Assembly (NCBI RefSeq): GCF_037860835.1
Contig: NZ_JBBEOG010000002.1
Span: forward strand, 62,001-126,000
DNA length: 64,000 nucleotides
Origin: Aquipuribacter nitratireducens
GTDB lineage: Bacteria; Actinomycetota; Actinomycetes; Actinomycetales; JBBAYJ01
Direction: 5' to 3'
Position numbers and translations under genes: made by a program
Notes under the pieces: generated by a model
What the model was told of the DNA's origin: nothing
Database searches by the model: none
What the model saw: only the letters and a program-made list of their open reading frames with translations
In this document: one piece after another, positions 39,465 to 41,556 of the stretch
Position numbering within the stretch: position 1 is the first letter of the stretch
Layout: the number at the start of each line of letters is the position of its first letter

Positions 39465-40646
39465 TCAGCCGGCCGCAGCGAGGGCCGCGGCGAGCTCATC
39501 CTCCAGGTCGAGGTGGGCGACGGGGTCCGCGACCCCCGCGACCTCCGCCTCCAGCTCGCGGACGAGCGGGATGACGCGCCGCCCGAAGGCCTCCACCTCC
39601 TCCCGGACGTGGAGGAAGCCGAGCAGGAGCAGGTCGACGCCGACGAGGCGGTAGGCGAGCACGCGACGGGCCACCTGCTCGGGCGTGCCGACGAGCCCGG
39701 TGCGGAAGCCGTCATTGTACTGGACGAGGTCCCGGAACGTGCTGTCCGACCACATGCCCGTCCCGTCCGACGTCGACCGGCCCGCCTGCCGGACCGCCTC
39801 GCCGAAGCCCTCGACCTTCTCGACGTCGGCGTGGGCGACGATGTCCTCGACGACCTGCCGGGCCTCCGCCTCCGTGTCGCGGACCACGGCGAACCCGTTG
39901 ACGCCGAATCGCACGCGGCGCCCGTTCGCGGCCGCGTAGCCGCCGACCTGCGCGACCTGCTCCGCGACGCCCTCGGGGCTGTTGCCGTTCATGAAGTACC
40001 AGTCGCTCACCCGCCCGGCCATGTGCCGGGCGTCGGTGGAGTTGCCGCCCTGGAAGATCTCCGGGAGGACGTCCGGCTGGGGGCGGAAGGTGAGGTCGCG
40101 GGTGCGGAAGAAGTCGCCCCGGTACGTGAAGCCGTCGGTGGTCCACGCCCCGCGCAGTACCTCGATGAACTCCTCGGACTGCCGGTAGCGCTCCCCGTGC
40201 TCCAGCCACGTCGCGCCCAACGACACCGCCTCGCCCTTGAACCAGCCGGACACGACGTTGAGGGCGAGCCTGCCGCCCGTGAGGGCCTGGGCGGTGGCGG
40301 CCCACTTCGCGAGGACGGTCGGTTGCCAGAAGTAGGGGTGGACGGCGGCGATGACCTTGAGGCGCTGGGTCGCGAGCAGCAGGGCGAGGGAGAACGACGT
40401 CGACTCGTGCTGCTCGTCCGCGCCGTAGCTCGCGCCGTAGCGGACCTGCGTGAGGGCGTAGTCGAAGCCTGCGGCCTCGGCGGCCCGCGCGGTGTCGACG
40501 TTGTACTCGGGGCTGTGCGACGTCCGTTGGGGCAGGGTCGAGACGACGAGGCCGCCGGAGACGTTGGGCACCCAGTAGGCGAAGCGGAGCGGAGTGCTCG
40601 TGCCGGCGAAGCGCAGGGGGTCGGCGAAGCGGACGGGCTCGGTCAT
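39465..40646 (-). CDS. sfnG: SfnG-like FMNH2-dependent monooxygenase (dimethylsulfone type)
   Basis: 393 residues, bacterial luciferase-like barrel. RFAYWVPNVSGGLVVSTLPQR near 22-42, FDYALTQVRYGASYG, HESTSFSLALLLATQRLKVI, LALNVVSGWFKGEAV, WLEHGERYRQSEEFI and GGNSTDAR are the pattern of SfnG, which oxidises dimethylsulfone to methanesulfinate. It needs reduced flavin from the adjacent reductase. ATG has AAGGAG upstream and overlaps the reductase stop by 4 bp. An alkanesulfonate-type enzyme is the alternative. Confidence 0.8.
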   Translation of the reverse strand: MTEPVRFADPLRFAGTSTPLRFAYWVPNVSGGLVVSTLPQRTSHSPEYNVDTARAAEAAGFDYALTQVRYGASYGADEQHESTSFSLALLLATQRLKVIAAVHPYFWQPTVLAKWAATAQALTGGRLALNVVSGWFKGEAVSLGATWLEHGERYRQSEEFIEVLRGAWTTDGFTYRGDFFRTRDLTFRPQPDVLPEIFQGGNSTDARHMAGRVSDWYFMNGNSPEGVAEQVAQVGGYAAANGRRVRFGVNGFAVVRDTEAEARQVVEDIVAHADVEKVEGFGEAVRQAGRSTSDGTGMWSDSTFRDLVQYNDGFRTGLVGTPEQVARRVLAYRLVGVDLLLLGFLHVREEVEAFGRRVIPLVRELEAEVAGVADPVAHLDLEDELAAALAAAG

Positions 40647-41161
40647 GCGACGGCTCCTTCGAGAGCGGCGGGACGCGTGTAGGTGCGGGAGTGGTGGACG
40701 AGCGGCTCGACGCCCGGGGAGTCGGCTCCCGTGACGCGGTGGACCTCGCCGAGGGCGAGGAGGGAGTCCCCTGCCTCGACGAACCGCAGGACGGCGCCGG
40801 CGACGCGGGTGACGACCCCGTCGAGGTGCGGCAGGTCGTCGTCGCCCCAGCGCCACGCGGTCGCGGGCCCGAAGCGGAGGGCGGCGTCGGCGGCGAAGCG
40901 TCGGGCGAGCTCGGCCTGGTCGGCGGCGAGCAGGTGGACGGCGTAGCGGCCGCTCTGCACGAGGGCGTGCAGGCTCGAGGACGACCTCGAGACGTTGAAC
41001 GACAGCAGCGGCGGGACGAGGGAGACGGAGGTGACGGACACGGCGGTGAACCCGACGGGCCGGCCTGCGTGCGCGGTCGTGACGACCCAGACGCTCGAGG
41101 CGTCGGATCGGAACGCGCGGCGCAGGTCCACGGCGGGTCCACCCCAGGTGGGGGTGGTCAT
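40643..41161 (-). CDS. Flavin reductase partner of the monooxygenase
   Basis: 172 residues, HpaC/FMN-reductase split-barrel. WVVTTAHAGRPVGFTAVSVTSVSLVPPLLSFNV (split, about 24-56) holds the flavin-binding G-x-T-x-x-x-x-S-V-S core and SSSSLHAL the next turn. It would supply FMNH2 to the SfnG-like enzyme, with which it overlaps. AGGAG lies 8 bases before the ATG. It is preceded by an S-box riboswitch. Confidence 0.85.
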   Translation of the reverse strand: MTTPTWGGPAVDLRRAFRSDASSVWVVTTAHAGRPVGFTAVSVTSVSLVPPLLSFNVSRSSSSLHALVQSGRYAVHLLAADQAELARRFAADAALRFGPATAWRWGDDDLPHLDGVVTRVAGAVLRFVEAGDSLLALGEVHRVTGADSPGVEPLVHHSRTYTRPAALEGAVA

Positions 41162-41324
41162 GGTGGCTCCTGTGGGCGGTGCGGGAAGGGTGGTCGGGCG
41201 GCTCAGGAGGTCCGGCGCCGACAGGCGCTGGACCCGGTCCTGTGCAGGTCGACCACACGGCGGCGCACCAGCCGCGGCGCGCGGGTCGGGTCAGGAGCAG
41301 GACGGACGTTCACGGTGATGGCCT

Positions 41325-41410
41325 CCATCGGCCTGGCGGGAGCACCCTCACCCGTCACCGGGGGGTTGCTGCGGCGTCGACGAGCCAGGTCTCTCGGCCG
41401 CTCTGGATGG
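41325..41410 (-). ncRNA. S-box (SAM-I) riboswitch aptamer
   Basis: On the minus strand P1 is CCATC (41410-41406) with GATGG (41329-41325). After it come CAGAGCGGCCGAGAGACC (the AGAGNGGC-GAGNGA kink-turn), CTGGC, TCGACGCC, then GCAGCAACC with invariant GCAACC (41369-41364), a CCCG-GTGA-CGGG hairpin with a GNRA loop, and GGGTGCT (41347-41341). This is the S-box order. It sits 163 bases before the flavin reductase start. A small hairpin at 41243-41221 could be part of the switch that follows. Confidence 0.85.
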
Positions 41411-41556
41411 ACGAGGACGACTGTGGCGGCCGTCGCCCCCTCGTGTCCACCTCCCGCAGCGGACGTCTCACGCCTCGGACGTGCTCACGCTGCGTGACGA
41501 GGGCCGTCACCCGGTCGGCCCCGCATCGCGACCCGCCCGCTGCCGATCACCAGGAC

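Follow-up and report, generated by a model that had tools for sequence, protein, structure and literature searches.

In the window, the whole stretch of 64,000 nucleotides that was analyzed, a gene pair on the minus strand encodes a flavin reductase (PF01613 domain match, 40643 to 41161) and SfnG, a dimethylsulfone monooxygenase (39465 to 40646, with the start taken from the ORF listing). SfnG belongs to the equivalog family TIGR04021, scoring 575.8 bits against a cut-off of 382.95, and its putative substrate follows from this family assignment. The start of sfnG overlaps the stop of the reductase gene as ATGA, and an AGGAG Shine-Dalgarno (SD) sequence for the reductase lies at 41167 to 41171. 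The preliminary description had named the same two genes, and their products probably scavenge sulphur from organosulphur compounds. Upstream of the pair on the same strand are a short leader-peptide ORF of 36 codons with a GTG start and a TGA stop (41203 to 41313, encoding VNVRPAPDPTRAPRLVRRRVVDLHRTGSSACRRRTS), whose stop is 44 nt from the reductase gene, and a riboswitch aptamer (41322 to 41413).

The aptamer was matched by Rfam cmscan to RF00162 (SAM, S box leader) at 41413 to 41322 with 60.3 bits (E = 1.7e-11), against a curated cut-off of 44.4 bits. The match was complete over model positions 1 to 108, was repeated when the small region alone was scanned, and was the sole match above gathering score in the whole window for all Rfam families. 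A SAM-I riboswitch had been proposed earlier at 41325 to 41410; these positions proved to be the exact ends of inner P1, with its 5′ strand CCATC at 41410 to 41406 and its 3′ strand GATGG at 41329 to 41325 in the sequence and the cmscan alignment, and the full match extends 3 nt further at either end. The GCAACC, GGTGCT and P2/P3 elements were likewise seen in the order and on the minus strand as described. The other Rfam models of the SAM clan, which the preliminary description had suggested as a check, gave no match to RF01725 (SAM-I-IV) anywhere in the genome and none above the family cut-off to RF00634 (SAM-IV) at the sfnG locus; the one RF00634 match in the genome is at another locus. A SAM-IV or SAM-I/IV class for the aptamer was dropped on these grounds. 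The RF00634 match itself (G000:C3:326096-326208, minus strand, 101.7 bits) indicates that two SAM riboswitch classes coexist in this genome.

Support for the fold came from an alignment of 17 homologues, in which 96% of cells were paired and the covariation score was 0.067, compared with 0.032 ± 0.005 in shuffled alignments, none of 500 reaching the observed value. Changes on both sides were seen in P2 (G-C to A-U in four sequences), at the outermost P1 pair, and at two of the five pairs of the P2-loop pseudoknot, formed by CCUGG in the P2 loop (41385 to 41389) and CCAGG (41332 to 41336). The covariation anticipated in the preliminary description was thus found for these elements but not for inner P1, whose CCATC/GATGG pairs never vary in the 17 homologues and, being invariant, provide no covariation evidence either way. 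No variation was seen either in the P3 internal loop (GCAACC/GGTGC) or in the AUC/GAU segment of P1. P1, P2, P3, the conserved core and the P2-loop pseudoknot of SAM-I are therefore all present with covariation backing. The P4 that had been expected is missing: in the 17 homologues the gap between the pseudoknot strand and P1 is only 2 to 3 nt, which excludes the stem of a four-stem junction, and because of this absence the aptamer was filed as a P4-less SAM-I-type variant rather than as a canonical SAM-I riboswitch. Homologues of the aptamer occur within the genus, family and order.

The position of P1 relative to the downstream start was then considered. The P1 3′ strand, GATGGAGG, is the SD sequence itself: GGAGG at 41322 to 41326 overlaps GATGG, and the GTG of the leader ORF follows 8 nt after it. 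The S-boxes compared carry a purine-rich SD at this position or beside it, and in nearly all of them a start codon follows no more than about 22 nt later. In seven sfnG loci that have no leader ORF (Kineococcus, Quadrisphaera and genome G300), the ATG of sfnG itself lies 4 to 15 nt past the P1 SD, an arrangement that suggests P1 is where control is exercised. The P1 SD starts a long gene in 30 S-boxes sampled across the class (for threonine biosynthesis in S. lividans, PMC8079986), and the same order has other S-boxes that directly start a metF-like gene or genes for a rhodanese, transporter or monooxygenase. In the window's genus, by contrast, each of the nine S-boxes starts a short ORF of 22 to 43 codons at this SD, as does that of locus L090, with the structural gene 44 to 282 nt past the stop of the ORF. 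Direct riboswitch control of the reductase-sfnG pair, as first described, was thus right as to the genes, but the start directly under P1 is that of the 36-codon leader ORF. Overlap between the base stem of a riboswitch and a start site is a described habit of Actinobacteria (PMC1262725), and for this reason the blocking of the leader-ORF start by a closed P1 can be considered a well-founded inference.

Folding predictions were less uniform. The window SD was mostly paired even in ligand-free folding, and no alternative to P1 in the apo state was found to be shared among the compared loci. A GATGG-AGG-CCATC repeat in the window was evaluated as a common apo-state switch and dropped since L022 does not have it. 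The stability of the intergenic RNA was unremarkable (z between −1.6 and +1.6), and no intrinsic terminator or consensus sigma-70 promoter was found. Just upstream of the S-box, a GTGGACA sequence is followed after about 17 nt by CACAGT (41420 to 41455 in the window; also at L022). This pair, common to two species, may be a candidate promoter, though it is not a consensus sigma-70 match.

The leader ORF encodes the segment ...LVRRRVVDLHRTGSSAC..., which is related to the actinobacterial sulphur leader peptide NF042934, a 19-residue NCBIfam model annotated as a putative leader peptide (cis_reg_atten) with a curated cut-off of 27 bits. The peptide carries R-x-VDL-x-R-x5-C near its C terminus and is encoded by a short ORF before sulphur genes, as is typical of this leader family. 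Its match to the model had an E value of 0.0087 (15.7 bits, below the cut-off), and those of four sister peptides had E values of 7.5e-6 to 9.2e-4 (up to 25.4 bits, all below the cut-off); from its sequence, the ORF is here termed leader-like and is not filed as an NF042934 member. When the genome was searched with NF042934 in six frames, ranks 2 and 3 were ORFs behind two of its three S-boxes, the window ORF being third. Rank 1 was an ORF at L166, around 1470 to 1550 (G000:C1:199563-199610, 26.1 bits, ORF ..LCARLHVDLQRTASST*), which has neither the motif Cys nor an S-box and precedes a gene of the sodium:dicarboxylate symporter family, perhaps a cystine transporter.

Kinship was also assessed with an independent HMM made only from 21 Streptomyces-type leaders. 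The window peptide scored 12.0, compared with a maximum of 11.0 in 21,000 shuffles; the peptides of L022, L090 and L195 also beat all shuffles, and those of L013, L019 and L187 did better than almost every one. The metY-type leaders (L012, L020 and marginally L017) and L016 showed no match to the motif model beyond having a Cys. Between sister species, the changes within the motif were mostly synonymous (6 of 10 and 7 of 9 changed codons).

The Cys codon of the motif (41221 to 41223) is TGT, which accounts for only 4 of the 82 Cys codons in the 28 probable genes of the window. In a protein-motif search that recovered 35 distinct leader ORFs carrying the complete motif, many of them close Streptomyces kin, the motif Cys was TGT in every one; in the long ORFs of these loci, TGT makes up 20% of the Cys codons. 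Of the first ten S-box leaders to be examined, nine have TGT at the motif position, L017 being the exception, and the other Cys codons within these ten leaders were TGC. One leader of genome G539 has no Cys at all. A hairpin at the Cys codon was dropped as a general feature: the window has a strong one (z = −3.5), L015 and L013 have weaker ones, and the other loci have none.

The genome holds three RF00162 sites, of which the second lies about 24 kb from the sfnG locus, just past the edge of the window, ahead of genes for an ABC ATPase, a binding protein and a permease. The best NCBIfam match of this ATPase is of the aliphatic-sulfonate type, under its cut-off. The third S-box lies ahead of a gene for an O-acetylhomoserine/O-acetylserine sulfhydrylase-type enzyme, under the NCBIfam cut-offs, which is followed by a gene for a second luciferase-like (LLM) monooxygenase. 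Judged by these genes, the three S-boxes look like an organosulphur-scavenging regulon, and the two additional sites strengthen the sulphur-scavenging logic put forward in the preliminary description. Two sister species have three S-boxes each, two of which lie at the counterparts of these ABC and sulfhydrylase genes. The third S-box is at the reductase-sfnG pair in one species; in the other it precedes a MetQ-like lipoprotein gene, and the contig with sfnG ends just upstream of sfnG. Three S-boxes per genome, every one above the Rfam cut-off, were found in all three species of the family that were searched. Together, the ABC importer, the O-acetylhomoserine sulfhydrylase-like gene with its LLM monooxygenase and the MetQ-like lipoprotein make up a regulon coherent with sulphur scavenging under a SAM-I element.

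To extend the comparison, sfnG loci were searched with a covariance model built from 20 sites. S-boxes lying immediately before sfnG, or before the reductase gene paired with it, were recovered in Quadrisphaera, Kineococcus, an Actinomycetales MAG and one genome from a different family. About 70 more remote sfnG loci (among them those of Nocardioides, Streptomyces and Actinomadura) yielded no S-box. In G300 (L079:197-2586, minus strand) the S-box drives sfnG and then a MetY/MetB-like enzyme (45% identity), an arrangement that joins scavenging and assimilation under one switch. Large SAM-I regulons of 5 to 13 S-boxes each were observed in G539, G451, G428 and other f56 g145 genomes and at L205; contig C14 of G539 has at least five S-boxes in 19 kb, amid luciferase-like monooxygenases and an ABC transporter.

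The tandem of S-box and leader ORF was found beyond the genus in several families of the order (L181, L179, L187, L191, L194, L195 and L196). At L181 it precedes a flavin reductase homologous to that of the window (53% identity). In the 19-kb region of G539, four of the five S-boxes have a leader ORF, and two such S-box-gated ORFs from this other family pass the NF042934 cut-off with 31.9 and 27.9 bits against 27. At many Streptomyces loci, the leader ORF alone precedes sfnG, with no S-box; in Streptomyces and relatives (L058 to L160) the leader MKxRLDLTRRRHVDLARVSSASCC.. was seen about 100 to 300 nt upstream of sfnG, and each distinct copy recovered has TGT as its motif Cys codon. Comparison of the Kineococcus/Quadrisphaera, Streptomyces and tandem loci thus shows the same gene with the riboswitch alone, with the leader alone and with both in series. 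We tentatively suggest that, in this branch of Actinobacteria, the SAM-I riboswitch and the cysteine-type leader may be interchangeable, stackable modules on the same sulphur genes, SAM licensing the leader and the rare, nearly invariant TGT reading cysteine.

For the window, we regard as probable, with some reserve, a gate in series in which a SAM-gated leader ORF in turn sets expression of the reductase. When SAM is plentiful, binding of the ligand would keep P1 closed and bar ribosomes from the leader ORF, and with the leader untranslated the operon would be off through lost translation coupling, Rho-type termination, or both. Termination by Rho on the C-rich leader, when it is left untranslated, seems plausible given the parallel of the M. 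tuberculosis Mbox (PMC12810186). A drop in SAM would open P1 and allow the leader to be translated, whereupon its conserved Cys codon or peptide segment would set the exposure of the reductase start, as proposed for actinobacterial sulphur leaders. The operon would thus read SAM supply first and cysteine supply second. The cysteine part of this model was adopted because the leader family has been linked to cysteine: cys leader peptides are described in Actinobacteria (PMC1262725), and mycobacterial cysteine-responsive attenuators were reported by Canestrari et al. 2020, according to the part of PMC9094748 that cites them. At the sfnG locus, cysteine-responsive attenuation is suggested by the peptide and its TGT codon. 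As for the route from leader to reductase, predictions had the reductase SD clearly released by a ribosome on the leader in four loci (the window, L022, L012 and L020), but gave no clear release for L015, L019, L016 or L090. The idea that all leaders contain an anti-SD masking the SD of the reductase, or share one coupling hairpin, was dropped, since this was predicted in only 4 of 10 loci.

A simpler explanation is a plain S-box OFF switch, with the small ORF a passive coupling device or a remnant that has no sensing of its own. The leaderless sfnG genes of Kineococcus and Quadrisphaera, under the same kind of riboswitch, are in keeping with it, as are the loss of the motif in metY-type leaders and the actinobacterial habit of overlapping base stem and start site (PMC1262725). 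However, the genus retains the motif at its ABC and sfnG S-boxes, other families retain it as well, it has changed between species mostly synonymously, and TGT, a rare codon, is fixed for its Cys; we therefore consider this explanation unlikely, although it deserves serious weight. It is quite improbable that the aptamer has switched to another ligand, such as a related metabolite, leaving SAM no longer the signal. The aptamer is a P4-less variant and SAM-I variants with another ligand, the spermidine variants, do exist (PMC10853860), but the score is above the SAM-I cut-off, neither the P3 loop nor AUC/GAU in P1 varies, and most identifiable genes behind these elements fit sulphur or methionine metabolism or uptake. 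That the ORF is a chance product of any SD in GC-rich sequence, with an accidental likeness of its peptide, is the least probable explanation, for although short ORFs are easily found and the window peptide alone is a weak NF042934 match, none of the 21,000 shuffles reached its score with the independent HMM, two of the top three NF042934 sites in the genome are directly behind S-boxes, and the same tandem recurs in sister species and in other families, twice above the curated cut-off.

The proposed series gate combines elements that are already known singly, namely SAM-I riboswitches, occlusion of an SD by P1, sulphur leader peptides and riboswitch-controlled upstream ORFs (uORFs). The element in the window shares with the RF00162 S-box P1, P2 with its kink-turn, the P3 GCAACC/GGTGC loop, the P2-loop pseudoknot and sulphur or methionine genes downstream; it differs in having no P4, an SD that is the P1 3′ strand, no terminator that could be found, and a leader ORF as the first target. 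With the actinobacterial sulphur leaders (NF042934, and NF042933 Ms5788A) it has in common the R-x-VDL-x-R-x5-C segment near the C terminus, a short ORF before sulphur genes and no obvious terminator, but its ribosome-binding site is inside a SAM riboswitch and its copy is below the curated score. The Streptomyces S-box before threonine biosynthesis genes in S. lividans (PMC8079986) is likewise an RF00162 element whose SD lies within the P1 3′ strand or adjoins it, but unlike the element in the window it has P4 and starts a structural gene directly. Riboswitch-controlled uORFs are known in M. tuberculosis, where a B12 switch controls uPPE2 (PMC11260477) and an Mg2+-responsive Mbox controls rv1805A (PMC12810186). 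These are translational OFF riboswitches of an actinobacterium with a short upstream ORF as the first target, as proposed for the window, but they have another ligand and aptamer, and the papers do not describe the uORF as a sulphur leader of the cysteine type. In M. tuberculosis ppe2 is coupled by an AUGA overlap, compared with the 44 nt from leader stop to gene in the window. No report of a SAM-I/sulphur-leader tandem or of a SAM riboswitch with sfnG was found in the open-access literature, which is weak evidence of absence.

The natural series of loci, with riboswitch alone, leader alone and tandem on homologous genes, allows the logic of stacking two RNA sensors to be tested, and the near-invariant TGT provides a handle on signal sensing by sulphur leader peptides. 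Organosulphur scavenging of the sfnG type in actinomycetes would also gain a trigger, low SAM and probably low cysteine. Two further riboswitch arrangements were observed. In four loci, SAM-IV riboswitches lie on the strand opposite to the S-boxes, about 100 to 1,100 bases away (L195:1697-1806, L179:1694-1806, L188:342-456 and L189:1912-2026). A guanidine-I riboswitch (RF00442, 66 bits) was found at L012:2308-2413 (plus strand) on contig C1 of G000, where it precedes a ureohydrolase-like gene and a sodium/solute symporter-like gene.
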